Of a stretch of 64,000 nucleotides of DNA, positions 5,922 to 46,353 are shown piece by piece. Source of the stretch: Malaciobacter pacificus. GTDB taxonomy: Bacteria; Campylobacterota; Campylobacteria; Campylobacterales; Arcobacteraceae. The notes below the pieces were generated by a model. That model was not told the origin of the DNA, did not search any database, and was given only the letters and a program-made list of their open reading frames with translations. Position 1 is the first letter of the stretch, and the number at the start of each line of letters is the position of its first letter. The translations under genes were made by a program, and so were the position numbers. Location: assembly GCF_004214795.1 (NCBI RefSeq), contig NZ_CP035928.1, positions 1,984,001 through 2,048,000 of the forward strand, in the 5' to 3' direction.

Positions 5922-5943
5922 AAGAGAAGATTTATTCTCTTTT
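5920..5943. terminator. Bidirectional terminator hairpin
   Basis: Perfect 9-bp arms AAAAGAGAA and TTCTCTTTT around a 6-base loop. It overlaps the stop codons of both converging genes. The A-rich 5' arm and T-rich 3' arm suit termination in both directions. Confidence 0.75.
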
Positions 5944-6571: not shown

Positions 6572-6647
6572 TATAATTCCTTGTTATTTACTTATAATTA
6601 ATCTTACTAAAATTATGATAAAATCATTTATTATTTAAAGGATTAAG

Positions 6648-9722: not shown

Positions 9723-9928
9723 TCTATCTTCATCGCTTCTTGTATTTCATCAAAATCTATTCCATTTCTTTTTGCAAGAAGTGCAAGTCTAGTAACTCTT
9801 GTTATATGGGATGGAATTGTTTTATATGTTGTAAAAGTTGTGGCTTTTACACCTATGTGCTCAGCGAATTTACCTTGAGAAGTAAATCCAATTTCCTTAA
9901 TTATTTTTTTAAATTCTTTCTTGTTCAA
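9719..9928 (-). CDS. Small helix-turn-helix protein, 69 aa
   Basis: Resembles the 74-residue HTH protein at 3317: a lysine-rich first helix (NKKEFKKIIKEIGF), then the FAEHIGVKATTFTTYK HTH, then a short helical tail. The start is TTG, because an in-frame stop lies just upstream and no ATG is available. The RBS is weak. Its probable promoter (-10 TATAAT, minus strand, 9961-9966) lies only about 30 bases from the left end of the IS element. Its role is unknown, and DNA binding is the likely activity. Confidence 0.65.
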   Translation of the reverse strand: MNKKEFKKIIKEIGFTSQGKFAEHIGVKATTFTTYKTIPSHITRVTRLALLAKRNGIDFDEIQEAMKID

Positions 9929-9977
9929 AGTCCAATTTTCTCATGTCAAAATTTTGCGGAATTATAGTTTCTTTTAA

Positions 9978-9999
9978 CTAAATTATATATTAAATTTAG
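9978..9999. promoter_or_regulatory. Dyad operator-like site at IS insertion point
   Basis: CTAAATT and AATTTAG form perfect 7-bp arms with an 8-bp AT spacer. The dyad lies just upstream of the small HTH gene on the minus strand, around its -35 position. The right arm includes the TTTAG that was duplicated by the IS. It could be an operator of the HTH gene, or simply a favoured insertion target. Confidence 0.4.
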
Positions 10000-10015
10000 G
10001 AGCCACTTGCAGATT
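10000..10015 (+). repeat. IS left terminal inverted repeat
   Basis: GAGCCACTTGCAGATT pairs with the reverse complement of 11477-11492 at 14 of 16 positions. The adjoining TTTAG at 9995-9999 is the left copy of the target duplication. Confidence 0.9.
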
Positions 10016-10056
10016 ATAAAAAACAACCCGTAATTTAAGCTGATTTAAATTTTAAA

Positions 10057-10126
10057 AAGTTGAATCAAACTTCAGATAAGTTATAATTTTTTACTACAAA
10101 AATTTAACAGAAGAGCGATTCAACTT
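10057..10126 (+). promoter_or_regulatory. Transposase promoter inside an inverted repeat that can mask the start codon
   Basis: AAGTTGAATC at 10057-10066 and its exact reverse complement at 10117-10126, touching the ATG at 10127, form 10-bp arms. The promoter TTGAAT-N16-TATAAT (10060-10065, 10082-10087) would start RNA near 10094, after the left arm. Only RNA reading in from outside the IS would carry both arms and fold over the start. This would limit transposase made from neighbouring promoters, as known for IS10 and IS50. Confidence 0.55.
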
Positions 10127-11302
10127 ATGGAAATTATTCTACCAAAAATATCTTCAAGTCTATCTAAAATGTGGACTAAGGTTTTAAATCTTGAAAATTC
10201 ACTTTTTCCTTCTTTGAAAAGAGAGCTTCAATTAGAAGAGTTGTCAAATAAAGAGCAAAAGCTTATTAAGATATTAGACTTTGCTGCGATTGAAAAAAAT
10301 ATCACTGTCGTATCTATTACAAACACTCCAAAGCATAGAGAAGAGATTGCACGAGCATTTATTGCAAAGAGTGTTTACAATATCCAAACAACCAGAGACC
10401 TTATCGATAGACTTCATAGTGATAGAACGCTGAGGATCTTGTGTGGGTGGAGATATAAAAACGATATTCCAAGTGAGTCTAAATTTAGTAGAGTCTTTAA
10501 GGAGCTCAGTGAGCTTAAAATTGCACAAAAGACGCATGAGCAGTTTGTGAAGGAGTATCTAAGGGATACACTCTTTTTTTATAATGCAAGTGATGCAACA
10601 AAAATACCACTGAGAGAAAAACCTGTAAAAGTTGAAAAAGAAAAGTTTAAACCAAAAAGAAGAGGACGACCTAAAAAAGGTGAAACAAGAGAGCCTAAAA
10701 CACCCAGTATCTTGCAGCAACAAGAAGATATGAAAACCACAAAGCAGATGCTATCTTTGGTATCAACGCAGTGTGGAGTTGGAAGAAAACAGAATTCCAA
10801 AGGCAACTTTGAAACATGGATAGGAGGGAAACTCCATATCAGTGTAGTAGATGGAGATATCCCTATTACTGCTATTTATTCAGGGGCAAATGTTCATGAT
10901 AGCTCAGTAGCACTTCCTCTTATAAACGAGACAAGCAAAAAAGTATCATATCTTTATGACTTACAAGATGCAGGATACGACAGCAATATTATCAGAGATT
11001 TTTCCAAAAAACTAAATCATAGACCGCTTATTGATATCAATCCGAAGAACTCCAAAGAGTTAAAAGGAAAAATTCAACTTATAAAAGATGAAAAAAAGAA
11101 ATTTAAAATTCTAAACCTTACTCAAAGTTTAGATACCCATCACTATAACCAAAGAAGTATGGTTGAGAGAGTCAATAAATACCTCAAAGAAGACTTTGGA
11201 TGCAGTAATATTTATTATAAAGGAGCTACAAAAGTAGCTTCTGTTTTAGCATTTGGTATTTTATCAGTTTGTATTCATCAGAGTTTGAAACTGGTAACAT
11301 AA
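10127..11302 (+). CDS. IS4-like DDE transposase
   Basis: Cuts and moves the surrounding IS. The 391-residue protein has an N-terminal DUF772-like segment, where IARAFIAKSVYNIQTTRDLIDRL and FSRVFKEL are typical. A first catalytic Asp probably lies in YNASDATKIP and the second in LQDAGYDS. The catalytic Glu is in YNQRSMVERVNKYLK, which fits the Y-2-R-3-E-6-K signature. A basic GRPKKGE-type linker lies between the first two (about residues 175-195). The frame is full length, so it may be active. The family assignment below IS4-like is not firm. Confidence 0.9.
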   Translation: MEIILPKISSSLSKMWTKVLNLENSLFPSLKRELQLEELSNKEQKLIKILDFAAIEKNITVVSITNTPKHREEIARAFIAKSVYNIQTTRDLIDRLHSDRTLRILCGWRYKNDIPSESKFSRVFKELSELKIAQKTHEQFVKEYLRDTLFFYNASDATKIPLREKPVKVEKEKFKPKRRGRPKKGETREPKTPSILQQQEDMKTTKQMLSLVSTQCGVGRKQNSKGNFETWIGGKLHISVVDGDIPITAIYSGANVHDSSVALPLINETSKKVSYLYDLQDAGYDSNIIRDFSKKLNHRPLIDINPKNSKELKGKIQLIKDEKKKFKILNLTQSLDTHHYNQRSMVERVNKYLKEDFGCSNIYYKGATKVASVLAFGILSVCIHQSLKLVT

Positions 11303-11476
11303 CTTTTAGCTAAAAACACTAAAAATTAGCCATTTTTAAAACTCAACCATCAAGCACGCACCCAATAATAGTTTTTTATCTAAAATTGACCCATAAAGCG
11401 GTAAAATGATTAAAAGTTTAAAAGATCTGCTTGATAAGCTTAGTAGGTTTACAAATTCACTAGTTTATGATGGTGG

Positions 11477-11492
11477 AATTTGCAAGCGGCTC
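11477..11492 (-). repeat. IS right terminal inverted repeat
   Basis: Read on the minus strand this is GAGCCGCTTGCAAATT. The TTTAG at 11493-11497 is the right copy of the target duplication. The 174 bases between the transposase stop and this repeat carry no gene that I can support. Confidence 0.9.
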
Positions 11493-11525
11493 TTTAGAGT
11501 AAAACTAATATTTTATAGTAAAAAT

Positions 11526-11554
11526 TTGACATTTTAGTTAATATTAAGTATAAT
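11526..11554 (+). promoter_or_regulatory. Consensus sigma-70 promoter of the lytic transglycosylase gene
   Basis: TTGACA and TATAAT separated by exactly 17 bases is a full match to the vegetative consensus. The right end of the IS lies 33 bases upstream of the -35 box, so the IS replaced the native upstream sequence but left the core promoter intact. Confidence 0.8.
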
Positions 11555-11591
11555 ACGGCGCGTTTTTTATGACACATACAAGGGGAAATAA

Positions 11592-12089
11592 ATGAATTTA
11601 AAAATTATTTTTTTATCTTTAATTTTCTTTACTAATATTTTTGCATCAAACTTTAATGCAAATAAACTAACTAAAGAAGATATTAACAAACTAAAAGTTA
11701 TTAAAGAACTTGGACAAAAGCATGGTTTAAGCTATAGTTTAATGGCTATTGCAATCAAAGAATCATCATTAGGTAGATACCAAATCAACGTTGATAGTAA
11801 AGATTATGGTCTATTCCAAGCTAATATTAAAACTGTACTTTCAAGACATAATGTAAAAAACACTTCTTGGAATAGAAATAGATATGCAATGAGATTAGTT
11901 TCTGATATGCAATTTGCTACTAAAAATGCAATTGCAGAACTAACATACTGGAAAAAAGTTCATAAAAATGATTGGAGAAAGGTATGGAGTAGCTACAACG
12001 GAGGTTGGAAATACAACTCAAAAAGAGCTCAAAAATACTCAAGAGACATTGCTAAAATAATCAGAGAACTGAAAAAAGTAAAAGTATAA
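11592..12089 (+). CDS. Lytic transglycosylase (SLT-type), secreted
   Basis: A 165-residue periplasmic murein-cleaving enzyme. Residues 1-18 are a signal peptide (LIFFTNIFAS). The SLT domain follows, with the catalytic Glu in AIAIKESSLGRYQIN, then DYGLFQANI and a later SSYNGGWKYNS motif, all expected for goose-type lysozyme-like transglycosylases. It is small, a single domain without a cell-wall-binding module. The gene is alone, with a strong promoter and AAGGGGA before the ATG. Confidence 0.88.
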   Translation: MNLKIIFLSLIFFTNIFASNFNANKLTKEDINKLKVIKELGQKHGLSYSLMAIAIKESSLGRYQINVDSKDYGLFQANIKTVLSRHNVKNTSWNRNRYAMRLVSDMQFATKNAIAELTYWKKVHKNDWRKVWSSYNGGWKYNSKRAQKYSRDIAKIIRELKKVKV

Positions 12090-12212
12090 ACAAATATTAA
12101 CTATCAGAAAGCTACTTTTAGCTTTCGACCTTCCTTTAAACCACATTCTACTTTAATTTATTTTGTTATTTTATTACTCATAACATCATTAATCTATTTT
12201 AACAATACAAAT

Positions 12213-12227
12213 TGATAAGTATTATCA
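12213..12227. promoter_or_regulatory. Fur-box-like palindrome 1
   Basis: TGATAAGTATTATCA is a perfect 15-bp dyad of TGATAA half sites, about 85 bases before the first frame of the flavodoxin unit. It suits a Fur-family regulator. The fur gene lies 1.8 kb away. Confidence 0.5.
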
Positions 12228-12265
12228 CTATTAATATTAGTTTAAGATTCTTATTGCTATTATTT

Positions 12266-12284
12266 CAATAATGATTATCAATAT
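12266..12284. promoter_or_regulatory. Fur box 2 of the flavodoxin unit
   Basis: On the minus strand the sequence contains GATAATCATTAT, a 12-base match within the classical Fur consensus. It lies just upstream of the 20-codon peptide gene at 12297. The whole downstream unit is therefore probably repressed by iron-loaded Fur. Confidence 0.62.
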
Positions 12285-12296
12285 AAAGGATATCAA

Positions 12297-12359
12297 TTGA
12301 AAAATTTTGAAATTAAAAGTAAAGAAAATATTGTAAAACCAACTGGTTGTACTTGTTAA
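12297..12359 (+). CDS. Cysteine-ended micropeptide, 20 aa
   Basis: A TTG-initiated frame with AAAGGA eight bases upstream. It encodes 20 residues, basic and acidic in the first half, and ends PTGCTC. The stop is 9 bases before the DUF2325 gene, so both are probably on one Fur-controlled message. The C-terminal Cys pair could bind metal or be modified, or the frame may be a translated leader. There is no homology claim. Its short length leaves chance possible. Confidence 0.4.
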   Translation: MKNFEIKSKENIVKPTGCTC

Positions 12360-12368
12360 GGATTAATT

Positions 12369-12704
12369 ATGAGTGTATTAGTAATTGGTGGAGATCAAAT
12401 TTCACAAATAAAAACTATGTTACAAGAACTAGGTGCAAAAACAATTAATCACTGGGATGCAAGAAAAAAATCTTCAGCTCCTAAAAAAAAGGTGCCACAA
12501 AACACTGATTGTATTGTGATGTTAACATCATTTTTAAACCATAATACAATGCTAAAATATAAGAATGAAGCGAAAAAAAGAAATATACCATTTGTATGTA
12601 CTAAAAGATCAGTTTCGTGTGTGTATGATGAATATGTAAAAATTATGGGTATAAAAGATTGTAATCAATGTTATGCAAACTGTAAAGGAGGAAATAATGA
12701 TTGA
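12369..12704 (+). CDS. DUF2325-family protein
   Basis: A 111-residue protein with the DUF2325 pattern: SVLVIGGDQISQIKTMLQELGA at the start, a basic segment KKSSAPKKKVP, then DCIVMLTSFLNHNTMLKYKNEAKKRNIPFVCTKRS. It ends in a Cys-rich tail (DCNQCYANC) that could bind a metal. The biochemical role is unknown. It sits below a Fur box and its last 8 bases overlap the next gene. From memory, Campylobacter jejuni has a like-ordered iron-regulated set, Cj1384c-Cj1383c-fldA. Confidence 0.82.
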   Translation: MSVLVIGGDQISQIKTMLQELGAKTINHWDARKKSSAPKKKVPQNTDCIVMLTSFLNHNTMLKYKNEAKKRNIPFVCTKRSVSCVYDEYVKIMGIKDCNQCYANCKGGNND

Positions 12705-13455
12705 TTTAATCGGATTTAAAAATAATAGTGAATTTTTACCTAAAGATTTTGATACATTTGATTCAAAACAGAAACTTAGACAACTTTTTTTATATATGAG
12801 TAATATTATCTTAAAAGATTTTTGCCACTTCAATAAATATGAACAAAATTTTTTAAGTAATTATAGTTTAAAACAAGCATTTACCTATAAAATTAAAAAA
12901 GATCTTAATATGAACTATGTATTAAGTCATAAAAAAAATAGTTTTAAATTTAATTTATGTAAGAACTCAACAAAAACAATTAATAATTATATTAACAATA
13001 CAAACTCCTCTTTTATTTCAAAAAATTGTAAATTAAAGGTTGCAAAATTAATTTCATCATGTTTTGTAAACAAAGAATTACAATTACTTATTGATAAACA
13101 CTTAGTTTTCCATGAATTTGTATTAAAAAAGTTAAAAAAACTACATAGTGATAAAACTATTATTGATTTAGGAAATGCCATTTGCATTAAGTCTGATGAG
13201 TTTCATGGAATTAAAATATATACTTCATGGAAAGATATCAAGATAAACAAACCAGATATAAAAGATGAACTTGAAAGTGCTATAAAAGCCATAAAAAAAG
13301 GTGAATCTTATCAAATATATCTAGCGTATCCTAAAAATAGTGATTTTACGAAACAAATACCAATTTATGTTAATGAATTAGAAAATCATGAATATCAAAT
13401 AAAAGCAATACCTTATTCATTAAGGTCAATAATTAAAACAAATAGGAGTTTATAA
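12697..13455 (+). CDS. Unknown protein, 252 aa, in iron-regulated flavodoxin unit
   Basis: No family is recognised. An earlier in-frame start exists at 12673, but the ATG at 12697 has a textbook AAAGGAGG just upstream and is preferred. The protein has no signal peptide or membrane helix. The N-terminal two thirds are lysine- and asparagine-rich with scattered Cys. The C-terminal part (about 155-252) looks like a compact alpha/beta domain (KTIIDLGNAICIKSDEF, then IKAIKKGESYQIYLAYP). It overlaps the DUF2325 gene by 8 bases, and its stop abuts the flavodoxin start, implying one translational unit. Confidence 0.75.
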   Translation: MIDLIGFKNNSEFLPKDFDTFDSKQKLRQLFLYMSNIILKDFCHFNKYEQNFLSNYSLKQAFTYKIKKDLNMNYVLSHKKNSFKFNLCKNSTKTINNYINNTNSSFISKNCKLKVAKLISSCFVNKELQLLIDKHLVFHEFVLKKLKKLHSDKTIIDLGNAICIKSDEFHGIKIYTSWKDIKINKPDIKDELESAIKAIKKGESYQIYLAYPKNSDFTKQIPIYVNELENHEYQIKAIPYSLRSIIKTNRSL

Positions 13456-13953
13456 ATGGCAACTGCAATATTTTATGCGACAAGTACTGGAAATACAGAA
13501 GAGATTGCTCAAAAAATAAGTGATGAGTTAGGAGGAATAGATACATTTGATTTAAGTAGCTGTGATATTAGCAAAATGAATGATTATGACAAAATAATTT
13601 TAGGTGGATCTACTTGGGGAGATGGAGAACTAAATGATGACTGGGAAGATGCATGGAGTAATTTTGAATCAATTGATTTATCAAGTAAAACTGTTGCACT
13701 TTTTGGATTAGGTGATCAAGAGAGTTATAGTGATGAATTTTGTAGTGCAATGGGAATAATTTATGAATATGTTAACTCTACTGGTGCAAAAATTGTTGGA
13801 TTTACATCAAGTGATGGATATTTTCATGATGAATCAAAAGCTCAAATAGATGAAAAATTTGTTGGATTAGTAATTGATGAAGATAATCAAAGTGATTTAA
13901 CAGATAGTAGAATAAAAACCTGGGTTGATGATATAAAAAGTGATATTTTATAA
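13456..13953 (+). CDS. fldA: Flavodoxin
   Basis: Small FMN electron carrier that can replace ferredoxin when iron is short. The FMN phosphate loop is FYATSTGNTEEIA at the N-terminus. The isoalloxazine-binding loops are GGSTWGDGELNDDW and FGLGDQESYSDEF. At 165 residues it is a long-chain flavodoxin. In Campylobacterota, flavodoxin serves pyruvate oxidoreductase. It is the last gene below the Fur boxes, and the start codon directly follows the previous stop. A strong hairpin terminates the unit. Confidence 0.96.
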   Translation: MATAIFYATSTGNTEEIAQKISDELGGIDTFDLSSCDISKMNDYDKIILGGSTWGDGELNDDWEDAWSNFESIDLSSKTVALFGLGDQESYSDEFCSAMGIIYEYVNSTGAKIVGFTSSDGYFHDESKAQIDEKFVGLVIDEDNQSDLTDSRIKTWVDDIKSDIL

Positions 13954-13956
13954 AAA

Positions 13957-13990
13957 AATAATATATTAAGATCTTTCTTAATATATTATT
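13957..13990. terminator. Bidirectional terminator between fldA and fur
   Basis: Perfect 15-bp arms AATAATATATTAAGA and TCTTAATATATTATT around a 4-base loop, just after the fldA stop and over the stop codon of the convergent fur gene. The stem is AT-rich. Confidence 0.75.
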
Positions 13991-14420
13991 GACACTCTTC
14001 GCATAAACCGTGTAATTGCATTGAATGACTAGTTATTTTAAACTTATTTTTCTTTGCAATTCTATCTTGTCTTTTTTCAATTTCTTCATCTAAAAATTCA
14101 ACTATTTTTCCACAGTTTGTACAAATTAGATGATCATGATGAGACTTAGAATTACTTTCATATTTCTTTCCATCAGTTCCAAATGCAATTGATGTAATTA
14201 AATCAACTTCTTCTAAAAAACTTAGTGCTCTATATACAGTAGCAATACCAATATTTGTGTCAGGAAACTGCTCTTTTATTTTGTTGTAAACGTCTTCAGC
14301 ACTCAGGTGCTCATCAGCATTTAATAAAATATTTAAAACAATCTCTCTTTGCTCAGTATATTTAAGACCTTTTTGTTTTACAATTTTTTTTAATTCTTCA
14401 ATAGTCTCTTCTGTATTCAT
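13986..14420 (-). CDS. fur: Ferric uptake regulator
   Basis: Iron-sensing repressor of 144 residues. The N-terminal winged helix (KYTEQREIVLNILLNADEHLSAEDVYNKIKE, then IGIATVYRALSFLEEVDLI) is followed by a His-rich metal and dimer region (SKSHHDHLICTNCGKIVEF) and a second Cys pair (LCEEC). The two CxxC motifs form the structural zinc site. A PerR paralogue would look similar, but the flanking fldA and feoAB with Fur boxes favour Fur. It is convergent with fldA and divergent from feoA. Confidence 0.9.
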   Translation of the reverse strand: MNTEETIEELKKIVKQKGLKYTEQREIVLNILLNADEHLSAEDVYNKIKEQFPDTNIGIATVYRALSFLEEVDLITSIAFGTDGKKYESNSKSHHDHLICTNCGKIVEFLDEEIEKRQDRIAKKNKFKITSHSMQLHGLCEECQ

Positions 14421-14510
14421 ATATAAAAATCTCGCCTTTTAAAATATAACTATTAGTATAGCTAAAATTTTTGAAAAACTCCTAATACTATTATTCAAAA
14501 AACTTATGTA

Positions 14511-14533
14511 TTGATAGATATCAAGTCTATCAA
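14511..14533. promoter_or_regulatory. Inverted repeat upstream of feoA, not Fur-like
   Basis: TTGATAGA, seven bases, then TCTATCAA: perfect 8-bp arms about 45 bases before the feoA start. It differs from the Fur site just downstream, so a second regulator is possible. The regulator is unknown. Confidence 0.45.
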
Positions 14534-14546
14534 AGCAAAAAGATAT

Positions 14547-14563
14547 TATAATAATCATTATTA
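14547..14563 (+). promoter_or_regulatory. feoA -10 element overlapped by Fur box
   Basis: A TATAAT at 14547-14552 overlaps the perfect dyad TAATAATCATTATTA (14549-14563). The dyad shares the AATCATTAT core of the Fur consensus. Fur bound here would block polymerase at the feoAB promoter. Confidence 0.62.
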
Positions 14564-14578
14564 GTTATAAGGAATTTC

Positions 14579-14803
14579 ATGACTCTTAATGAGCTAGATA
14601 AAAATCAAACTGCTATTATAAAATCAATTAATTGTGACTCTGTTTTAAAAAATCGCTTTTACTCTTTAGGAATAGTAAAGGGTGCAACAATAAAAATTGA
14701 AGAAGTGACTTTAACAAAAAGTACAATTGAAATAAATATCAATGGATCAAAATTTGCGTTAAGATTTAGTGAAGCAAATAAAATAGAAGTTGAAAATGAA
14801 TAA
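14579..14803 (+). CDS. feoA: Ferrous iron transport protein A
   Basis: A small SH3-like cytosolic partner of FeoB, 74 residues. It shows the typical TLNELDKNQTAIIKSI start and a FYSLGIVKGATIKIEE core, followed by INGSKFALRFSEANKIEV. It lies below a Fur box, and its end overlaps the feoB coding region. Confidence 0.93.
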   Translation: MTLNELDKNQTAIIKSINCDSVLKNRFYSLGIVKGATIKIEEVTLTKSTIEININGSKFALRFSEANKIEVENE

Positions 14804-16901
14804 TAAAACAATCAAAATAGCATTGGTAGGTCAACCTAATGTTGGAAAATCTATGCTTATTAACTCAATTTCTAATGCAAAACTAAAAGTAGGAAACTTT
14901 TCAGGTGTGACTGTTGCAAAAGAGGAAGTTTTCTTAGAGTATAAAAACTACAGATTTGAAATTACAGACCTACCTGGGTCATACTCTTTAACTAACTTTA
15001 CATTAGAAGAAAAAGTAACTAAAAGTTTTTTAGATAATTCTAACTATGACATAATTTTAAATGTAATTGACTCAACAAAGCTAGAAAGAAATTTATATTT
15101 AACAAGTGAACTTCTAGAATTAGATAAAAAAATGGTTATTGCTTTAAATATGACCGATGAAGCAAAAAAAGAGAAAATAGAAATTGATGAAAAACAACTA
15201 AGCAAAATTCTAGGTAAACCATGTATAAAAACTAGTGCTGCAAAAAATAGTGGAATTAGTGAATTATTAGATGAAATTATAAAAAAATTTGAATCTGAAA
15301 AATTACCTACAAAACTAATTTTTTCAGATGTAATTGAAGAAGAAATTACAAATATAGAAAATATTTTAGAAGAGAATGGATTTAAATCACAAGAGACATA
15401 TAGACAATTAGCAATCAAAATTTTAAAAGAGGATGAAGAAACCTATAAATTCTTTCATGACCATCCAATCTGGATAAAATTACAGCCAATAGTAAGTGAA
15501 GCTTTTGAACATATTGCACTTCATTATAATACAAAAAATATGGAAGATATTTTTAATGAAGAAAAACACTCCTTTTCAAAAGGTGCTGTTACAGAAACTC
15601 TAAAAGTTAAATTATCAAATAAAAAATCATTGACTGATAAAATTGATTCTATTTTAATTCATAAACTTTTTGGTATTCCTATTTTCTTATTTTTAATGTG
15701 GGGACTATTTCAACTTACTTTTGAAGTTGGAAATATTCCAATGGACTTAATTGATGCATTTTTTGCTAATTTAATTGATAATACAAAAAATATATTAGGG
15801 AATAATGAGATTAGTTCAATTATAGCTGATGGAGCGATAGCAGGAGTTGGCTCTGTAATTCTTTTCTTACCCAATATTGTAATACTATTTATAGGAATAG
15901 CACTTCTTGAAACAACTGGTTATATGAGTAGAGTTGCTTTTTTACTTGATGGTTTTTTTCATAAATTTGGGCTTCATGGTAAATCATTTATACCTTTAGT
16001 TACAGGCTTTGGATGCTCAGTTCCTGCTTATATGGCTGCTCGTACTTTAAAAAATGAAAAAGATAGATTACTAACTCTATTTATTATTGGGTTTATGTCT
16101 TGTGGAGCTAGACTTCCTATATATGTCTTATTTGTCGGAGCCTTTTTTAGTAATGAAAATGCCGGGAATATACTTTTTCTAATCTATATTTCTGGAGCAA
16201 TATTAGGTTTATTTGCAGCAAAAGTATTAAAAATTATAGTATTTAAAAGTGAAGATGAGCCTTTTGTAATGGAAATGCCAAAGTATAGAATGCCTTCATT
16301 AAAATTGATTTGGCATACTGTATCAAATCAAGCACTAATGTATTTAAAAAAAGCAGGAACTTATATATTAGCAGCATCACTCTTAATCTGGTTTGCATCA
16401 AATTATCCAAAACATTTAGAGTATGAGCAAACAATAGCCACTAAAATTGAGCAAGCATCAACTCAAGAAGAGAAAGCTATCTTAAGTAATAAACTTGCTC
16501 AATATAACCTTGAAAATTCATATCTTGGAATCATAGGTAAAACAACTGAACCACTTTTTGAGCCACTTGGATTTGATTGGAAAATGACAGTTGCCTTAGA
16601 AACAGGATTAGCAGCAAAAGAGATTGTAGTTTCAACTCTTGGTATTTTGTATGGACTAGGTGAAGAGAATGATGAGCAAAGTAAAGGGCTTATAGAAAAA
16701 ATAAGAACTAATATACCATTTGCTTCAGCTATTTCATTTATAGTATTTGTAATGATTTATTTGCCATGTTTAGCTGCATCAATGGTATTTGTAAAAGAAG
16801 CTGGTAGTTGGAAATATTTAGGCTATTTATTTATATTTACAACGACTACAGCTTGGATCATGTCATTTATAGCATATAATATAATTAATTTAATACTCTA
16901 A
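14796..16901 (+). CDS. feoB: Ferrous iron transporter B
   Basis: Inner-membrane Fe(II) transporter with an N-terminal G domain. G1 is GQPNVGKS (residues 10-17), G3 is DLPGS and G4 is NMTD. A helical GDI-like segment leads to the membrane part with two Gate domains. The metal-path cysteine is in VTGFGCSVPAYMAART. The ATG at 14796 has AGAAG six bases upstream. A TTG two codons earlier is less likely. The length (701) is normal. It is co-transcribed with feoA. The gene stops 2 bases before the convergent 16904 gene. Confidence 0.96.
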   Translation: MNNKTIKIALVGQPNVGKSMLINSISNAKLKVGNFSGVTVAKEEVFLEYKNYRFEITDLPGSYSLTNFTLEEKVTKSFLDNSNYDIILNVIDSTKLERNLYLTSELLELDKKMVIALNMTDEAKKEKIEIDEKQLSKILGKPCIKTSAAKNSGISELLDEIIKKFESEKLPTKLIFSDVIEEEITNIENILEENGFKSQETYRQLAIKILKEDEETYKFFHDHPIWIKLQPIVSEAFEHIALHYNTKNMEDIFNEEKHSFSKGAVTETLKVKLSNKKSLTDKIDSILIHKLFGIPIFLFLMWGLFQLTFEVGNIPMDLIDAFFANLIDNTKNILGNNEISSIIADGAIAGVGSVILFLPNIVILFIGIALLETTGYMSRVAFLLDGFFHKFGLHGKSFIPLVTGFGCSVPAYMAARTLKNEKDRLLTLFIIGFMSCGARLPIYVLFVGAFFSNENAGNILFLIYISGAILGLFAAKVLKIIVFKSEDEPFVMEMPKYRMPSLKLIWHTVSNQALMYLKKAGTYILAASLLIWFASNYPKHLEYEQTIATKIEQASTQEEKAILSNKLAQYNLENSYLGIIGKTTEPLFEPLGFDWKMTVALETGLAAKEIVVSTLGILYGLGEENDEQSKGLIEKIRTNIPFASAISFIVFVMIYLPCLAASMVFVKEAGSWKYLGYLFIFTTTTAWIMSFIAYNIINLIL

Positions 16902-16903
16902 AA

Positions 16904-17281
16904 TTATTTCAACTCAAATTGAGTTGAGTAATTTTTACCATCTTCTAAAACTACTTTAAAAGTCCAAAAACCTAACTCTCTACCATTTATATATCTGTAA
17001 TCATAAATTGAACCATGACCTGCTGGAATAATCATATCTCTTTCCCTAGATAATTCACCACTTGGAGAAATCCATTCAATTTTTATTTGCTTATCATAAC
17101 TTGTTCTTGTTACTTCAAATTTACATATAATTGAGTTTTCATCTTCAAGAATTAAACAATCTGCATTTGGTTCAATCTGTTCAAAAATTTCTTCTGAGAA
17201 ATTTTGATTTTCAACTGTTTGTTCTTCAGCATTTATGTTACATATAATTAAAAAAAGAGATAAAAGAATTATTTTAATCAT
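16904..17281 (-). CDS. Periplasmic protein, unknown, about 125 aa
   Basis: Residues 1-18 form a signal peptide (IILLSLFLIICNINAEE). The rest is an acidic linker and a beta-rich domain with RTSYDKQIKIEWISPSGE and a C-terminal WTFKVVLEDGKNYSTQFELK, which reads like a small Ig-like or carbohydrate-binding sandwich. The ATG at 17281 overlaps the end of the upstream membrane gene by 8 bases and starts right at the signal peptide. The longer in-frame extension would bury it. No family is named. Confidence 0.68.
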   Translation of the reverse strand: MIKIILLSLFLIICNINAEEQTVENQNFSEEIFEQIEPNADCLILEDENSIICKFEVTRTSYDKQIKIEWISPSGELSRERDMIIPAGHGSIYDYRYINGRELGFWTFKVVLEDGKNYSTQFELK

Positions 17282-37946: not shown

Positions 37947-39077
37947 ATGACTTCTGCAATAGATTTATCTAAATTAACGGCAAATGATGATTTGACTCCA
38001 GTACTTGGCGGTTATTGGCCAGGTATTCAAATCTACTACCCACCGATTAAATTCAACCCATTAGATGGTTCGTATGAAAGTATGGAACAAGCAAAGCTTA
38101 GATTACAAAAGCATGCTTATAAAACAAAAGCACATACAGTTCTATTTGACTTAGAAGATGGATGTAGACAAAAAGCTATGTCTAGAGAGTTATTAATCCA
38201 AGAGTTACCAAAGTTTCCAGAAAGAAATTTCCAAATAGCTGTTAGAATTAACCCATTTAGAACAGAAGAGTACGAAGAAGATTTAAAAATGTTAAAACAA
38301 ATTCACAAATACATTGATGTAATTGTTTTAGCAAAAGCTGGGGAAGTTTACGGTTCTGCAGAAATTAGAGATTTATCTTCATGGTTAGTTTCAATTGGTT
38401 CAAACTTAACAATTCAACCAATCGTTGAGCACCCAAAATCGTTACAAATTGCTGATAGATTAATGGATCACTCAACTGTTAAACATATTGTATTTGGTAT
38501 TCACGATTTTTCAAAAGCAATGGCATATAAAATCACTCCAAAGGGTTGGATTGATGAGTTAGAGACTTTCTTTAATATGTTAACAATGGAAGCAAGAGTT
38601 AAAGGAACTGGGGTTATTGGTGGAGTTGAAGTTATGTTAACACCACACTCATTACCAGATTCTTGTGTTGAGAAAAAAGATATTAGAAGATGGTTAGATT
38701 TACATGGTGATGAAGCTTCAAGAGCTGTTTATTCTCATGCACAAAGAGAGTATGCAATGGGATTAACTGGTAAACAAGTTATTACTCCAAACCATATTAA
38801 TGTATGTAAAGTTGCATTTACTCCATCACCAAATGAAATTGCAAAAGATGTTGCTATCTTAAAAGCTGCATTAGAAGCAGATGCATTATTATCTGGTGCT
38901 ATTAGATATGAAGGTGAGATGTTAGATCCACCAATGTTTGGTAAATCTTTACAAAACTTATTAAGAGCGTATGCTTTAAGAGCATTACCAAAAGAGGATG
39001 AATTATTTGCATTATCTGTATTAAACAAAATGCCAATACATACATTTAAAGAAAACTGGCCATATGGTCAACTGTAA
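37947..39077 (+). CDS. CitE/HpcH-family CoA-ester lyase-like protein, 376 aa
   Basis: A TIM-barrel lyase of the citrate lyase beta/malyl-CoA lyase superfamily. The active-site set is complete: LFDLEDGCR (acidic pair), Arg in VRINPFR, metal Glu in IQPIVEHPKS and metal Asp in FGIHDFSKAM. It is longer than typical CitE (about 290) owing to insertions around 190-260. It probably makes or splits a 3-hydroxyacyl-CoA such as malyl- or methylmalyl-CoA. Malyl-CoA thioesterase activity is also known in this group. First gene of a four-gene operon. Confidence 0.8.
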   Translation: MTSAIDLSKLTANDDLTPVLGGYWPGIQIYYPPIKFNPLDGSYESMEQAKLRLQKHAYKTKAHTVLFDLEDGCRQKAMSRELLIQELPKFPERNFQIAVRINPFRTEEYEEDLKMLKQIHKYIDVIVLAKAGEVYGSAEIRDLSSWLVSIGSNLTIQPIVEHPKSLQIADRLMDHSTVKHIVFGIHDFSKAMAYKITPKGWIDELETFFNMLTMEARVKGTGVIGGVEVMLTPHSLPDSCVEKKDIRRWLDLHGDEASRAVYSHAQREYAMGLTGKQVITPNHINVCKVAFTPSPNEIAKDVAILKAALEADALLSGAIRYEGEMLDPPMFGKSLQNLLRAYALRALPKEDELFALSVLNKMPIHTFKENWPYGQL

Positions 39078-39096: not shown

Positions 39097-41616
39097 ATGA
39101 GTGAAAATATTACTATTGAAGTACCTGAATTTTTAAATATTGGTGTCGCTTGTACATCTGCACATGTTGGAACAAAAAATGAAGACAATATTGCAATGGT
39201 TATCGAAGATGACAAATTAGGTACTGATGAGATTACATATAAAGATTTAGCACAAAAATCTGATCAAGTTTGTAATTTCCTTACAGGTCTTGGATTAGAG
39301 CCAAGAGATAGAGTATTAGTTTGTTTAAAAAACTCACTAGCATACCCTATTTCTTTCTTTGGAGCTATTAAAGCAGGTATTATTGCTGTACCTACTTCAA
39401 CTTTATTATCTGGTTCTGAAGTTAAGTACTTAGCAGAAGATTCTCAAGCAAGTGCAATTGTTATGTCTGCAACTATGTATGAAAACTTAGTTCCTTACTT
39501 AGAAAATTGTGATAATTTAAAAACAATTATTGTTGCTGCTTGTGATAATGTTGATGGATTAAAAAAACCAAAAGGTATCAATGTTTATGCTTTAAATGAA
39601 ATTCTTGCAAATACTGATACTACTCCAAATCACTATAAATCTAAATCAGGTGAGCCTGCATATTTAGTTTATACATCTGGAACAACTGGTTATCCAAAGG
39701 GTGTTTTACATTCACATAGGTCACTTGTTGGTAGAACTCCAGCAACTGAGTACTGGTTTGATTTTAAAGAGAATGATAGAATCATGCACTCTGGAAAATT
39801 TAACTGGACATATGTATTAGGTTCAGCACTTATGGATCCATTATACAATGGACACACAGTTATTGCTTATGAAGGTGCAAATGATGCATCAACTTGGATT
39901 GATTTAATTAAAAAACACCAATGTACAATTTTCATTGGAGTTCCAACAATTTATAGACAAATCATCCAAAAAACTGATTTCACTATTAAAGATTGTCCAT
40001 CATTGAGATATTGTATGTCTGCTGGTGAGCATTTATCTGATGAAATGTTAGGTTTATGGAGAGATAGATTTGATCAAGATATCTTTGAAGCAATTGGTAT
40101 GTCTGAGTGTTCTTACTATATTTCACATTCTAAAAACAATCCAATTAGACCTGGAAGTGCAGGATTTGTTCAACCAGGACACACTGTAAAATTACTTGAC
40201 CCTGATACTTTAGAAGAAGTTGAAGATGGAACAGAAGGTATGATTTGTATCGGTGAAGATGATCCAGGTTTATTCTTAGAGTACTGGCAATTAGAAGAGG
40301 AAACTCAAAAAGCTAGACACGACGGATACTTCTTTACAGGTGATTATGCTAAAAAAGATGAAGATGGATATATTTGGTTTATCGGAAGAAAAGATGATAT
40401 TATTAATACATTTGGATTTAGAGTTTCGCCTCATGAAATCGAAAGAGTTGTAAAAACTCACGATGATGTAGCTGATTGTGTTGCATTTGGATTAGAACTT
40501 GGAAAAGATAAAGTAATTGTTGCTATTGCTGTTATTGGACATGAAGAATTATCTCAAGAGAGACTTGATGAAATTCTAGCCTTCTCTCAAGCTAATTTAG
40601 CAAAATATAAAGCACCAAAAGAGATCTTTGGAATGAAAGATTATCCAAGAACTAAAAATGGTAAAGTTTTAAGAAAGCAATTAGTAAAACAATTACATGA
40701 ACAATACCATGCACAAGAAACAGGTGAAGAGATTATTGAGTACAAAGCAAGAAGATCTATGTTATTTGTACCAGCATATAATAAAGCAAATGTATTAAAA
40801 GCAAAATCAGTATTAGCTGATTCTGTTATCTTTGATTTAGAGGCTATTTTACCAGAAAAAAGAGAAGAAGGTAGAGCAACAGTAAAAGAAGTATACAAAG
40901 AAGAAGGTGCAAAATTTGGTGAGTCTGAAAGAGTTCTAAGAATCAATAACTTAGGAAGTGAAGATTTAGCAAAAGATTTAGAATTAGCTAAAGAGATTGA
41001 AGTTGATGCTTTACTATTCTCTAAAATTGAAACTGCAGAGCAAGTTTTAGAAGCAGAGAAATTATTAAATGAAATTAACCCAGCATTGTCTTTAATGATC
41101 ATGATTGAAACACCATTATCAGTTTTAAATATTCAAGAAATCTGTGCAGCATCAGCTAAGGTTGAAGTTGTTGTAGTTGGTTCAAATAAATTAGCTAACA
41201 GACTTCAAATTGATATTAAAAAAGGTTCAAAAGCAATGTTTAACTACCTATCGCAAATTGCGCTTGCTTCTAAAGCATATGGTAAAACTGTAATTGATGG
41301 TCCTCACTTTGATGTTAAAGATGAGTTTGCGTGTGAAGATTCAACTAAAGATGCATTTAACTTAGGATTCGATGGTAAATCACTAATCCACCCAGTTCAA
41401 ATTGAATATATCAATGATATCTTTACTCCAAAACAAGCTGAAGTTGAAATGTTCGAAGGAATGATTAAAGCTTGGGAAGCAGCTAAAAAAGAAGGTAAAG
41501 AAGTTATCATGTACAATGATAAACTTGTTGATGGTTCAAAAATTAAATGGGCGACTAAAATGATTACATTATATGAAACATATAAATCATTAGGTCAAAA
41601 CCTATTTGGTAAATAA
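39097..41616 (+). CDS. AMP-forming acyl-CoA ligase fused to CitE-like domain
   Basis: An 839-residue fusion. Residues 1-545 are an ANL-family ligase: YTSGTTGYPKG (189-202), the hinge GDYAKKDEDGYIWFIGRKDD, and catalytic K523 in RTKNGKVLRK. Residues 552-839 are CitE-like (RSMLFVPAYNKANVLKAK, MIMIETPLS with E671, GKSLIHPVQIEYINDIF). In that domain DLED is DLEA (580-583) and the usual metal Asp of GxxDL is Lys698 (GSNKL), so lyase activity is uncertain. A 2- to 5-carbon acid such as malate, mesaconate, citramalate, acetate or propionate is a plausible substrate. Confidence 0.85.
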   Translation: MSENITIEVPEFLNIGVACTSAHVGTKNEDNIAMVIEDDKLGTDEITYKDLAQKSDQVCNFLTGLGLEPRDRVLVCLKNSLAYPISFFGAIKAGIIAVPTSTLLSGSEVKYLAEDSQASAIVMSATMYENLVPYLENCDNLKTIIVAACDNVDGLKKPKGINVYALNEILANTDTTPNHYKSKSGEPAYLVYTSGTTGYPKGVLHSHRSLVGRTPATEYWFDFKENDRIMHSGKFNWTYVLGSALMDPLYNGHTVIAYEGANDASTWIDLIKKHQCTIFIGVPTIYRQIIQKTDFTIKDCPSLRYCMSAGEHLSDEMLGLWRDRFDQDIFEAIGMSECSYYISHSKNNPIRPGSAGFVQPGHTVKLLDPDTLEEVEDGTEGMICIGEDDPGLFLEYWQLEEETQKARHDGYFFTGDYAKKDEDGYIWFIGRKDDIINTFGFRVSPHEIERVVKTHDDVADCVAFGLELGKDKVIVAIAVIGHEELSQERLDEILAFSQANLAKYKAPKEIFGMKDYPRTKNGKVLRKQLVKQLHEQYHAQETGEEIIEYKARRSMLFVPAYNKANVLKAKSVLADSVIFDLEAILPEKREEGRATVKEVYKEEGAKFGESERVLRINNLGSEDLAKDLELAKEIEVDALLFSKIETAEQVLEAEKLLNEINPALSLMIMIETPLSVLNIQEICAASAKVEVVVVGSNKLANRLQIDIKKGSKAMFNYLSQIALASKAYGKTVIDGPHFDVKDEFACEDSTKDAFNLGFDGKSLIHPVQIEYINDIFTPKQAEVEMFEGMIKAWEAAKKEGKEVIMYNDKLVDGSKIKWATKMITLYETYKSLGQNLFGK

Positions 41617-41626
41617 GGAGACAAAG

Positions 41627-42685
41627 GTGTCAAAAATTAATATGGGTAACTTTTTTGAAGATTTTTCAATAGGTCAAAAAATCATTCACCCACTTCCTAG
41701 AACAATTAGTGAAGGTGATGTATCTTTATACATCGCTTTTACAGGTTCTAGATTTGCATTACACTCTTCAGATGTTATTGCAAATGAGATGGGATATGAT
41801 AAAAGACCAATTGATGATGTTTTAAACTTTCACTTAACTTTTGGTAAGTCAGTTCAAGACATCTCTTTAAATGCCATTGCTAACTTAGGTTATGCAGAAA
41901 TTTCTTTCCCTAATCCAGTATATACAGGTAATACTGTATCTATGACTTCAACGGTTATTGGATTAAAAGAGAACTCTAATGGTAAATCAGGGGTTGTATA
42001 TGTTCACTCTATTGGTGTTAACCAAAATGGTGATGAAGTATTAAACTTCAAAAGATGGGTTATGGTTCATAAAAAAGATAAAGAGACTTCTACAGGTATG
42101 AACGAAGTTCCTACTTTTGCAGAATCTACTCCTATAACTGAAGAGATTAATATTCCAGTAGTTAAATGTGTTGATACAGATGCAACTGGTGGAAAATTCT
42201 TCTTTGAAGATTATGTAAAAGGTGAGAGATTAAACCACCCAGAAGGTATTACTATTGATGATAGTGACCATACTTTAGCAACTAAGTTATACCAAAACAA
42301 TGCTAAGGTACACTTCAACGACCACATGATGAAATCTACTCCAATGGGAGAGAGATTAATGTATGGTGGGATTGTAATTTCAATTGCAAGAGCAATTTCA
42401 TTTAACGGTTTACAAAACGCGCAATGGATGTATGCAATTAACTCTGGTGCTCATGCGAACCCAACTTATGCAGGAGATACAATCTATGCATATACTGAGG
42501 TTTTAGATACGATTGATCATAAAAGAGATGATATTGGATTATTAAGATTAAGAACGATTGCTGTTAAAAATCAGAAATCTTCTGAAATTGAGAATCCAAA
42601 AGGTGAAGATGGTAAGTACTTAAAAAATGTAGTACTTGATTTAGATTACACAGTAATCATTCCAAAGAAAAAAACACAAAAATAA
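41627..42685 (+). CDS. mch: Mesaconyl-CoA hydratase-like double hot-dog (MaoC) protein
   Basis: A 352-residue protein with two MaoC-type domains, the size of mesaconyl-CoA hydratase (beta-methylmalyl-CoA dehydratase) of Rhodobacter and Chloroflexus. Matching stretches are GNFFEDFSIGQ, SLNAIANLGYAEI, VIGLKENSNGKSGVVYV and RWVMVHKKD. The GTG at 41627 has AAGGAG six bases upstream. An in-frame TTG overlapping the previous gene is rejected. It would interconvert methylmalyl-CoA and mesaconyl-CoA. Substrate assignment rests on remembered family sequence and context. Confidence 0.8.
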   Translation: MSKINMGNFFEDFSIGQKIIHPLPRTISEGDVSLYIAFTGSRFALHSSDVIANEMGYDKRPIDDVLNFHLTFGKSVQDISLNAIANLGYAEISFPNPVYTGNTVSMTSTVIGLKENSNGKSGVVYVHSIGVNQNGDEVLNFKRWVMVHKKDKETSTGMNEVPTFAESTPITEEINIPVVKCVDTDATGGKFFFEDYVKGERLNHPEGITIDDSDHTLATKLYQNNAKVHFNDHMMKSTPMGERLMYGGIVISIARAISFNGLQNAQWMYAINSGAHANPTYAGDTIYAYTEVLDTIDHKRDDIGLLRLRTIAVKNQKSSEIENPKGEDGKYLKNVVLDLDYTVIIPKKKTQK

Positions 42686-42712: not shown

Positions 42713-43696
42713 ATGACACACCCAAATCAAGCATTATTTGAATCTGGTAAATCTTTACCAATTATTCCAACTTGTGAGCACTTTGCAGGTAGTGAGAAGC
42801 TAATCTTAAAAGGTTTCGAAATGCAAAAGAAACTTGGACCTGTTTTTGATATTACTTGTGACTGTGAAGATGGTGCAGAAACTGGTAAAGAAGTAGAACA
42901 TGCTGAAATGATTGTTAGAGTTGTTAACTCTGATGCTAATCCATATGGTATGGCTGGAACAAGAATCCACGATTTCTCTCACCCAGATTGGAGACAAGAT
43001 GTTGATATCTTAGTACCAGGTGCTGGTGAAAAGTTAGCATACATTACATTGCCAAAATCAACTTGTTATGAAGATGCAAAAACTCAAATTGAATATATTC
43101 AAAAAGTTGCTAAAGAAGCTGGTATTTCAAGAGAAATTCCAATTCATATCTTAATTGAAACTCATGGTGCATTACAAGATGTAGAAAAAACTGCAACTTT
43201 ACCATGGTTACAAGTATTAGACTTTGGTTTAATGGACTTTGTTTCTGGTTACCAAGGTGCAATTCCAGCAATTAACATGAGATCTCCTGGTCAATTTGAT
43301 CATAGATTAATTGGTGCAGCTAAAGCAAGAGTTGCTCAAGCAGCTATTCAAAACCATGTTATTCCAGCACACAACGTAACATTAGATCTTAAAAACCCAT
43401 ACCAAACTTATAAAGATGCTGAAAGAGCTAGAAATGAGTTCGGATTCATGAGAATGTGGTCAATTTACCCAACACAAGTACAAGCAATCGTTGATGCTAT
43501 GAAACCAGATTTTACTGAATTAGAAGCTGCTCAAAATATTTTATTATTAGCACAAGATGCTGAGTGGGGACCAATCCAATACGATGGTGAGTTACATGAT
43601 AGAGCTACTTACAGATATTTCTGGGAATTAGTTCAAAGAGCACACTTCTCTGGTGCAAAATTAATGGATGAAGTAACTACAAGATTCTTCTCATAA
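42713..43696 (+). CDS. CitE-family CoA-ester lyase, 327 aa
   Basis: The second free-standing lyase of the operon, of a subtype starting PIIPTCEHFAGSEKLILKGF. The acidic motif is CDCEDGAETGKE, metal Glu in IHILIETHGALQDV, and Asp in LDFGLMDFVSGYQG. The C-terminal lid carries MRMWSIYPTQVQAI and WGPIQYDGELHDRATYR. Likely reactions are aldol cleavage of malyl-CoA or methylmalyl-CoA to glyoxylate plus acetyl- or propionyl-CoA, or citramalyl-CoA cleavage. The following hairpin ends the operon. Confidence 0.82.
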   Translation: MTHPNQALFESGKSLPIIPTCEHFAGSEKLILKGFEMQKKLGPVFDITCDCEDGAETGKEVEHAEMIVRVVNSDANPYGMAGTRIHDFSHPDWRQDVDILVPGAGEKLAYITLPKSTCYEDAKTQIEYIQKVAKEAGISREIPIHILIETHGALQDVEKTATLPWLQVLDFGLMDFVSGYQGAIPAINMRSPGQFDHRLIGAAKARVAQAAIQNHVIPAHNVTLDLKNPYQTYKDAERARNEFGFMRMWSIYPTQVQAIVDAMKPDFTELEAAQNILLLAQDAEWGPIQYDGELHDRATYRYFWELVQRAHFSGAKLMDEVTTRFFS

Positions 43697-43865: not shown

Positions 43866-45359
43866 ATGAGCGTAATTACAGAACAAGATATAGTAGATAG
43901 TATAGCATCAGCATGTCAATATATTTCTTTTTATCATCCAGAAGACTTTGTAAAAAGTATGGTAGAAGCATATGAAAAAGAGCAATCTGAATCAGCTAAA
44001 AATGCAATTGGACAAATTTTAATTAACTCTAAAATGTGTGCAATGGGACATAGACCTTTATGTCAAGATACAGGAAGTGTTAACATCTTCGTAAAATTAG
44101 GACTAAAAGCTAAGCTTGATATTTCTAAACAATTAGAAGATGTATTAAATGCAGGTGTTGCTAAAGGTTATACTGATCCTGATAATACTTTAAGATTCTC
44201 AGTCGTTTCAGACCCAGCAGGTGAGAGAAAAAATACTAAAGATAATACTCCAGCAGTTATTCACTTCTCAGTTGATTCTGAATCTGATAAATTAGATATT
44301 ACAGTTGCTGCTAAAGGTGGAGGAAGCGAGAATAAATCTAAATTTGCAGTATTAAATCCATCTGATTCAATCTATGATTGGGTTATGGCAAATGTAAGAG
44401 AAATGGGAGCAGGATGGTGTCCTCCAGGTATTTTGGGTATTGGTATTGGTGGTAATCCAGAAAAATCAATGCTATTAGCTAAAGAAGCTTTAATGGGTCA
44501 CGTTGATATTCATGAATTAAAAGAGAGAGGTCCTCAAAACGCACTTGAAGAACTTAGATTAAGACTTTATGAAGATATCAATAAAATTGGAATTGGAGCT
44601 CAAGGACTTGGTGGATTAACTACTGTTGTTGATGTTAAAATTTTAGATTACCCATGTCACGCAGCATCTTTACCTGTTGCTATGATTCCTAACTGTGCAG
44701 CAACTAGACACATTCACTTTGAATTAGATGGAAATGGTCCAGCTAAATTTGAAAAACCTTCTTTAGATATTTGGCCAGATATTGAATTACCAATGGATAC
44801 TATTAAAAGAGTTAACATTGAAGATTTAACAAAAGAGAACTTATCTCAATTTAAATCAGGTGATACTTTACTATTATCAGGAAAAATCTTAACAGCAAGA
44901 GATGCAGCTCATAAAAAAATAGTTGAGTACAAAAATGCTGGTAAACCACTTCCAAATGGTGTTGATTTAAAAGATAGATTTATTTACTATGTTGGACCAG
45001 TTGATCCCGTAAGAGACGAAAAAGTAGGACCTGCAGGACCAACTACATCTACTAGAATGGATAAATTTACTAAAGACATGATGGAAATTGGAATCATGGG
45101 TATGATTGGTAAAGCTGAAAGAAAGCAACCAACAATTGATTTAATTAAAGAGTACAAATCTATGTACTTAATTGCAACAGGAGGAGCTGCTTACTTAATT
45201 TCTCAATCAATTAAAGATGCAAAAGTATTAGCATTTGAAGAGATGGGAATGGAAGCAATTTACGAGTTTGAAGTAAAAGATATGCCAGTTACTGTTGCTG
45301 TTGACACTGAAGGTGTTTCAATTCACACTACAGGACCAGCTAAATGGAGAACTATTTAA
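43866..45359 (+). CDS. Class I fumarate hydratase ([4Fe-4S], single chain)
   Basis: Hydrates fumarate to malate in the TCA cycle. At 497 residues the alpha and beta parts are fused. Cluster cysteines lie in RPLCQDTGSVNIF, MGAGWCPPGILGIGIGG and MIPNCAATRHIHFE. The C-terminal part has GPTTSTRMDKFTKDMMEIGIMGMIGKAER and GPAKWRTI. Some class I fumarases also hydrate mesaconate to citramalate, which would suit the upstream mch-like operon. It is set off by terminators on both sides. Confidence 0.93.
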   Translation: MSVITEQDIVDSIASACQYISFYHPEDFVKSMVEAYEKEQSESAKNAIGQILINSKMCAMGHRPLCQDTGSVNIFVKLGLKAKLDISKQLEDVLNAGVAKGYTDPDNTLRFSVVSDPAGERKNTKDNTPAVIHFSVDSESDKLDITVAAKGGGSENKSKFAVLNPSDSIYDWVMANVREMGAGWCPPGILGIGIGGNPEKSMLLAKEALMGHVDIHELKERGPQNALEELRLRLYEDINKIGIGAQGLGGLTTVVDVKILDYPCHAASLPVAMIPNCAATRHIHFELDGNGPAKFEKPSLDIWPDIELPMDTIKRVNIEDLTKENLSQFKSGDTLLLSGKILTARDAAHKKIVEYKNAGKPLPNGVDLKDRFIYYVGPVDPVRDEKVGPAGPTTSTRMDKFTKDMMEIGIMGMIGKAERKQPTIDLIKEYKSMYLIATGGAAYLISQSIKDAKVLAFEEMGMEAIYEFEVKDMPVTVAVDTEGVSIHTTGPAKWRTI

Positions 45360-45516: not shown

Positions 45517-46353
45517 ATGTTAATTGACGATTTAAAAGATTACTTAGGATTTGCAGTTGCAGGAAATTTTGCTAACCATCTAGGAGAAGCTGGTGAGGCA
45601 GATGAGTTTGCTGTAATTAAAACAGAAGAAAAAGATGCTCCAAAAGGAATGTTCCCTTTTTATATAAAAGGACATGATAGTTTCTTAGGTACGTATCCAA
45701 TATGTGATGAGAAAATACTTACTCATGGTAGAGAAGGTGATAACCTTCAAGTTGAAGCTGAAGTAGCACTAATTTGTGACTTTGTTTATGAAGATGGTAA
45801 AGTCAAAGATATTATTCCTAAATATTTTAGTGCCTTTAATGATTTTTCAATCAGAATTCAAGATGGAAATAAACTTAGTACTAAAAAAAATTGGGGTCCT
45901 AATACAAAAGGTATCTCACAAGAAATAATAGAGATTGATAATTTCACGGAAAATGGAGTATTAAGTAAATACCATATTGCATCATTTATTAAAAGAAATG
46001 GTATTGTACATGACTATGGTACAACAAGTGCTGTTAAATCATATAGCTACTTCTTTGGACAATTAAAAGATTGGATGATTAATAAACTTAATACCCAAGT
46101 TGATCAAGGTCCCCTTGAAGAATTAACTCAATTTTTAAAAGTTGCAGCTGATGATGCAAAAGGTATTTTAATAGCTGCAGGTGCAACTGCTTATGCAGAT
46201 TTTGGAAAGAAAAACTTTGTACAAAAAGGTGATGAAATTTTTGTATATGTTTATGATGCACACTTTCATTCATTTGATGATATCTATAATGATATGTGTG
46301 GTATGGACACATTCTTAACTAAATGCTCTAAATTACATCAAATTGTAGAATAA
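45517..46353 (+). CDS. DUF5718 / FAH-like protein, 278 aa
   Basis: A soluble protein of a family common in Campylobacterota. The stretch REGDNLQVEAEVALICDF and the later FNDFSIRIQDGNKLSTKKNWGPNTKGIS recall the fumarylacetoacetate hydrolase fold, in which acidic residues bind a metal. The exact reaction is unknown. It stands alone between two hairpins with AGGA before the ATG. The next gene is convergent. Confidence 0.7.
   Translation: MLIDDLKDYLGFAVAGNFANHLGEAGEADEFAVIKTEEKDAPKGMFPFYIKGHDSFLGTYPICDEKILTHGREGDNLQVEAEVALICDFVYEDGKVKDIIPKYFSAFNDFSIRIQDGNKLSTKKNWGPNTKGISQEIIEIDNFTENGVLSKYHIASFIKRNGIVHDYGTTSAVKSYSYFFGQLKDWMINKLNTQVDQGPLEELTQFLKVAADDAKGILIAAGATAYADFGKKNFVQKGDEIFVYVYDAHFHSFDDIYNDMCGMDTFLTKCSKLHQIVE

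Follow-up and report, generated by a model that had tools for sequence, protein, structure and literature searches.

The Mg ion of malyl-CoA lyases is coordinated by a Glu and an Asp (Glu141 and Asp168 in RsMCL of R. sphaeroides), and two further acids of the DLED loop (E44/D45) hold metal-bound waters. The chemistry is done by an Arg and by an Asp of the lid; this lid closes over the adjacent subunit's active site, on which its Asp acts (PMC3832036). Both metal ligands were described by Zarzycki & Kerfeld as "absolutely conserved" across the CitE-like superfamily, and the characterised CitE-like lyases as well as the thioesterase require Mg or Mn (PMC3832036). A fusion of CaiC and CitE (AB1918) was noted in 2007 in the genome paper of A. 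butzleri, where the passages on AB1917-AB1921 propose a 3-hydroxypropionate/citramalate-like pathway that interconverts glyoxylate + propionyl-CoA and pyruvate + acetyl-CoA via mesaconate/citramalate (PMC2147049). Judged by gene order and content, this is very likely the same cluster as the one analysed here in Malaciobacter pacificus, within a stretch of 64,000 nucleotides referred to as the window.

The gene cluster and its fusion gene

The genes in the window are ordered lyA, fusion, MaoC-type hydratase, lyB and class I fumarase (Table 1). The fusion product is an intact AMP-forming acyl-CoA ligase joined to a CitE/malyl-CoA-lyase domain, with Pfam matches to AMP-binding (residues 27-397, E 3e-74), AMP-binding_C (447-523) and HpcH_HpaI (553-766, E 2e-32). 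Its ligase half carries the full set of features of AMP-forming (ANL) acyl-CoA ligases, namely PF00501 together with PF13193 and the P-loop (residues 192-202), linker and catalytic Lys motifs, with GRKDDIINTFGFR starting at residue 430 and PRTKNGK at residue 517. This half is strongly conserved among fusions, and orthologues of the whole fusion protein (64-90% identical) are found in Arcobacteraceae, Sulfurospirillaceae and some Gammaproteobacteria. The linker shows 0% identity to distant fusions, though the domains on both sides align, and residues 540-552 have low pLDDT in the full-length AF2 model. As this model is poor overall (pLDDT 69.8, pTM 0.51), the domain arrangement of the fusion is left uninterpreted. 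A search of plasmids gave no convincing fusion of the ligase-CitE type, the top matches being separate genes or less than 37% identical. An antisense ORF of 153 residues (40641-41102, minus strand) lies inside the lyase domain and is taken as a chance frame.

Table 1 Coordinates of the fusion gene, its parts and the neighbouring genes in the window
Feature	Position	Strand	Basis
lyA, free-standing CitE-like lyase, 376 aa, catalytic residues intact	37947..39077	+	alignment of 86 sequences
Fusion gene, 839 aa, acyl-CoA ligase + degenerate CitE-like domain	39097..41616	+	ORF translation, Pfam
AMP-forming acyl-CoA ligase domain, aa 1-535	39097..40701	+	PF00501/PF13193; all ANL motifs
Variable linker, aa 536-548	40702..40740	+	identity and pLDDT
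CitE/malyl-CoA-lyase-like domain, aa 549-839, TIM barrel + C-terminal lid	40741..41613	+	PF03328, AF2
DLEA, aa 580-583, shortened DLED loop, one of two metal-water acids missing	40834..40845	+	alignments
E671, remaining metal-ligand Glu, in IETP (670-673)	41107..41109	+	fusion alignment
GSNKL, aa 695-699, K698 in place of metal Asp	41179..41193	+	fusion alignment
D812, lid Asp	41530..41532	+	fusion alignment; role from malyl-CoA lyases
MaoC-type hydratase (mesaconyl-CoA hydratase-like)	41606..42685	+	PF19315, E 4e-25
lyB, second free-standing CitE-like lyase, 327 aa, intact	42713..43696	+	alignment of 84 sequences
Class I fumarase/mesaconase-like protein, often, not always, in cluster	43866..45359	+	PF05681/PF05683

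Both free-standing lyases carry the acidic motifs that the initial annotation had attributed to them: DLED (68-71) and GIHDF (184-188) in lyA, CDCEDG (49-54) and GLMDF (172-176) in lyB. Alignment gaps aside, the catalytic residues of lyA (DLED, R100, E161, D187, D327) are invariant in 86 sequences and the equivalent residues of lyB in 84, whereas the fused lyase domain shows the lowest conservation in the cluster. lyB is closely related to two solved structural-genomics entries titled citrate lyase or putative lyase, 3qqw (Reut_B4148) and 3r4i (Bxe_B2899), and here belongs to a conserved two-lyase cluster. In most Arcobacteraceae the cluster is followed by a gene for a DUF5718 protein (45517-46353 in the window), even where the fumarase gene is absent. 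In one other cluster (L039 of G018, 8527-9591) the MaoC gene is seemingly split into two ORFs, possibly through a frameshift in the gene or contig.

The genome from which the window is taken contains only three PF03328 proteins, all within this cluster. Searches of this genome gave no malate synthase G and no full isocitrate lyase, the only match to the latter family being a short one in a 297-aa frame that is read as methylisocitrate lyase. This enzyme content fits the pathway proposed for AB1917-AB1921, with C5-dicarboxylates as the presumed substrates. In one gammaproteobacterium, the unfused form of the cluster (L203 of G587, 4662-16921) adjoins genes for methylisocitrate lyase, malic enzyme, PEP synthase with its regulator PpsR, and a GntR regulator, a neighbourhood that points to C3/C5 anaplerosis.

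Metal site, fold and selection in the fused lyase domain

The fused domain retains the TIM-barrel HpcH_HpaI domain with its C-terminal lid and, in the window, the metal-ligand Glu (E671), the catalytic Arg (R615) and the lid Asp (D812). K698 stands where Asp168 is found in RsMCL, and the adjacent Glu-Asp pair of the DLED loop is missing. The initial annotation had placed DLEA, E671 and K698 correctly and had described the metal Asp as lost, which a wider comparison bears out: among 41 dereplicated fusion sequences, position 698 is K in 25, N in 7, T in 5 and S, Q, A or R in one each, with Asp in none, as opposed to Asp at the equivalent column in 18/18 outgroup CitE sequences. It had further treated DLEA as a substituted DLED. 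Instead, one residue has been deleted, as every alignment puts a gap in the motif (DL-EAILPE versus DLEDAVAPD), and E582 pairs with the fourth DLED position in multiple alignments. Conservation of the Lys across fusions, which had been suggested as a check, does not hold; the constant feature is the absence of Asp. A catalytic or Schiff-base role of Lys698 is rejected on the basis of the same variation.

Other residues of the site are retained to differing degrees. Position 671 is E in 35 fusions, D in four, and A and Q in one each (6/41 non-Glu), position 615 is R in 37 and K in four, and the lid Asp is kept in all 41. Two fusions (L121 and L126) have neither metal acid. Pocket residues G695, N697, D734, K761 and H765 are invariant, which, together with the retention of E671 in 35/41, indicates that ligand binding may have been retained at the site. 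Given that Asp is absent from every fusion, is present in all 18 outgroup sequences, and that the equivalent residues of lyA and lyB are invariant, the difference can be attributed neither to chance nor to a general relaxation of the cluster. Based on these residues, the fused domain has very probably lost Mg-dependent lyase activity.

A normal Mg-dependent lyase would need another acid to fill the metal site. E671 is retained, the fold is normal, and a compensating acid may come from elsewhere in the domain, for instance E743, which is invariant and specific to fusions. However, no conserved acid lies near GSNxL in the fusions, E743 as the nearest candidate begins the helix after strand 7, and E671 itself is missing from L121 and L126, making this explanation very unlikely. 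Alternatively, the domain could remain catalytic through a metal-free or altered mechanism, such as thioester hydrolysis or an aldol step via other residues. The retention of E671, R615 and D812 in most fusions and the new, invariant E743 and N697 would agree with this, as would the existence of thioesterases and dual lyase/thioesterases among CitE relatives (PMC3832036, PMC6689899) and the presence, in most unfused relatives of the domain, of the Glu reported in the lid of the thioesterase group. Yet position 698 varies without constraint, two fusions have A or Q at 671 and four have K at 615, leaving no conserved acid-base or metal set except D812, and the dependence of characterised lyases and the thioesterase on Mg or Mn also speaks against a metal-free reaction. 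An altered mechanism is thus judged improbable.

The isolated domain is predicted by AF2 as a complete fold with lid (pLDDT 91.3, pTM 0.88), and its model is closest to 5ugr, a malyl-CoA lyase (Z 34.0, rmsd 2.3 over 285 aligned residues), followed by 5vxs, human CLYBL (Z 33.8). In the closest pairs of fusions, dN/dS of the domain is mostly 0.06-0.14 and slightly above that of the ligase, with higher values in two close pairs that include L116, whose ORF stops at the contig end. When all pairs whose ligase dS does not exceed 1 are taken, the median is 0.20 for the domain and 0.16 for the ligase. The domain is therefore under purifying selection and is not decaying. Its conservation, the lowest in the cluster, and the long stem branch of the fusions (1.2 changes per site) could be taken as signs of useless baggage decaying after fusion, an extremely unlikely account that is contradicted by a dN/dS near 0.1 and by conservation: the domain contains no stops, has 54 invariant positions and has never been lost from fused genomes. 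Low dN/dS and a complete predicted fold rather suggest that it is selected for something besides standard lyase chemistry.

Unfused relatives and the proposed partner of the fused domain

A scan of GTDB contigs, with searches around the matches, found the fused form of the cluster in Arcobacteraceae, in Sulfurospirillaceae and in several MAGs of Gammaproteobacteria. In Pleionea and other Gammaproteobacteria the same cluster consists of separate genes for lyA, ligase, lyD, MaoC and lyB, where lyD is the free orthologue of the fused lyase domain (34-43% identical), the ligase is 55-60% identical to that of the fusion, and lyB is usually divergent. Unfused lyD has DLQE or similar instead of DLED, and its lid Asp is mostly replaced by Glu, while the metal Glu and Asp are mostly retained. 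A second unfused group (L128, L200-L202) has lost the metal Asp, and L213 both ligands. In one gammaproteobacterium a 751-aa ORF without an NCBIfam match at 1e-10 lies between lyD and MaoC (L210:10169-12421).

With the metal-site columns removed, a maximum-likelihood tree places all fusions in a single clade (support 100/100) that branches from within unfused lyD; long-branch warnings apply to this tree, chiefly for outgroup rows. On it the fusion arose once, from unfused lyD and ligase genes, and the presence or absence of the metal Asp needs three changes on the tree. As the basal fused rows are gammaproteobacterial MAGs, the fusion would appear to have arisen there and then moved to Campylobacterota.

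The distribution of the genes links the domain to lyA. In the samples surveyed, the 38/397 Campylobacterota genomes with lyA are exactly those with the fusion, and the 6/369 Gammaproteobacteria with lyA are exactly those with the ligase orthologue. Evolutionary rates of the five proteins were also compared branch by branch on a shared topology of 60 genomes with 116 branches. Over the 33 branches of unfused genomes, the rate of lyD covaries with that of lyA (partial Spearman rho 0.71; 95% bootstrap interval 0.45-0.86) and with none of the ligase (0.22), lyB (0.00) and MaoC (0.01). A regional mutation effect would be expected to reach the ligase as well, since its gene is usually placed between those of lyA and lyD. 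In the fused part, lyD follows the ligase (0.53), as would be expected of one polypeptide, and lyA covaries with the ligase too (0.33), but lyA-lyD stands at -0.08, so the lyA-lyD signal of the unfused set does not recur. Rate covariation in unfused genomes supports lyD as a partner of lyA, without proving the partnership, and gammaproteobacterial lyD most likely evolves with active lyA because both form a mixed oligomer.

These observations can be brought together if the fused domain acts as a pseudo-lyase subunit, paired with active lyA and tethered to the ligase by the fusion, an explanation that stands at about an even chance. Having kept the CitE/malyl-CoA-lyase fold and lid while losing the Mg centre for aldol cleavage, the domain, as a descendant of the free subunit lyD, would assemble with lyA in the way CitE proteins form trimers or hexamers. 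With a pseudo-lyase subunit covalently tied to the ligase, such an oligomer would keep ligase and lyase together, and a new C5-dicarboxyl-CoA ester could pass from one to the other within it. D812 may serve in the active site of lyA: it is the only catalytic residue kept without exception, and the corresponding Asp acts on the neighbour's site in malyl-CoA lyases, which fits such a role. Its invariance could also be structural, as the lid residues L810 and W818 are likewise invariant in fusions, and action of D812 in trans on lyA is only tentatively suggested. The full arrangement, in which the metal-free pseudo-lyase, covalently carried by the ligase, lends its lid Asp to lyA and a dead paralogue thereby forms the base of a channelling complex of ligase and lyase, is possible but on the doubtful side.

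Against lyA as the partner stand the fused rates, which follow the ligase, and the small size of the unfused test; against a pseudo-lyase, most unfused lyD retain both metal acids and may be active. Perhaps, the domain instead serves its own ligase only, as a non-catalytic oligomerisation or CoA-ester-sensing module (a homotrimer scaffold or feedback site) without contact to lyA. Besides the rates in fused genomes, the fusion-specific invariant pocket pattern (GSN/GTN-x-L, IDG, DGK, HP) that persists despite the lost metal site would agree with this. In unfused genomes, however, lyD tracks lyA and not the ligase, and in G424 the ligase orthologue adjoins MaoC in a cluster with neither a lyA nor a lyD orthologue beside them, the CitE genes nearby being ordinary ones with intact metal-ligand motifs. 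A module for the ligase alone is hence regarded as rather unlikely, and that the fused domain partners lyA is a proposition for and against which the weight is about equal.

Of the roles offered by the initial annotation, binding of CoA thioesters without cleavage and hand-over of product to a partner lyase fit the repeated loss of metal ligands, the retained fold and purifying selection, the co-occurrence with lyA and the rate covariation where the genes are unfused. Another mechanism via Lys698 is unlikely, as the Lys is not conserved.

Comparison with known systems

A superfamily described with invariant metal ligands thus contains a whole orthologue group, spread over two phyla, that departs from this description, and the metal site was lost more than once while the domain stayed under selection. 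Unfused proteins with the metal acids, unfused proteins without them and fused proteins without them form a natural series for asking what role a non-cutting lyase subunit plays. Annotation of the Arcobacter fusion gene as a malyl-CoA or citrate lyase is advised against, and the two lyase reactions of the cluster are narrowed to lyA and lyB. The literature search returned nothing on a pseudo-CitE, or on this fusion besides the A. butzleri genome paper, and among the papers listed for BbsCD, considered as a precedent for a catalytically inactive partner within a CoA pathway, there was no such statement. In the A. butzleri paper, the passage on these genes names each of the three CitE proteins as a possible malyl-CoA lyase and does not mention the missing metal site (PMC2147049).

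With malyl-CoA lyase, CLYBL and (S)-citramalyl-CoA lyase (PF03328), the fused domain has in common the fold, the trimer-type C-terminal lid and most pocket residues; it differs from them in the missing metal Asp, in a DLED loop that is one residue short and in the attached ligase. The malyl-CoA thioesterase group of R. sphaeroides has Glu in place of the lid Asp, a feature common to most unfused lyD (PMC3832036). The fused domain has the lid Asp and so falls outside this group, and unfused lyD differs from the group in lacking the DLED pair. ATP-citrate lyase also combines a ligase and a lyase in one polypeptide, and the likeness lies in CoA-ester synthesis joined to a C-C lyase partner. Its components are nevertheless of a different kind, a citryl-CoA synthetase-type ligase and a citryl-CoA lyase as opposed to the AMP-forming PF00501 ligase and PF03328 domain found here, and the lyase joined in the present fusion lacks its metal site.
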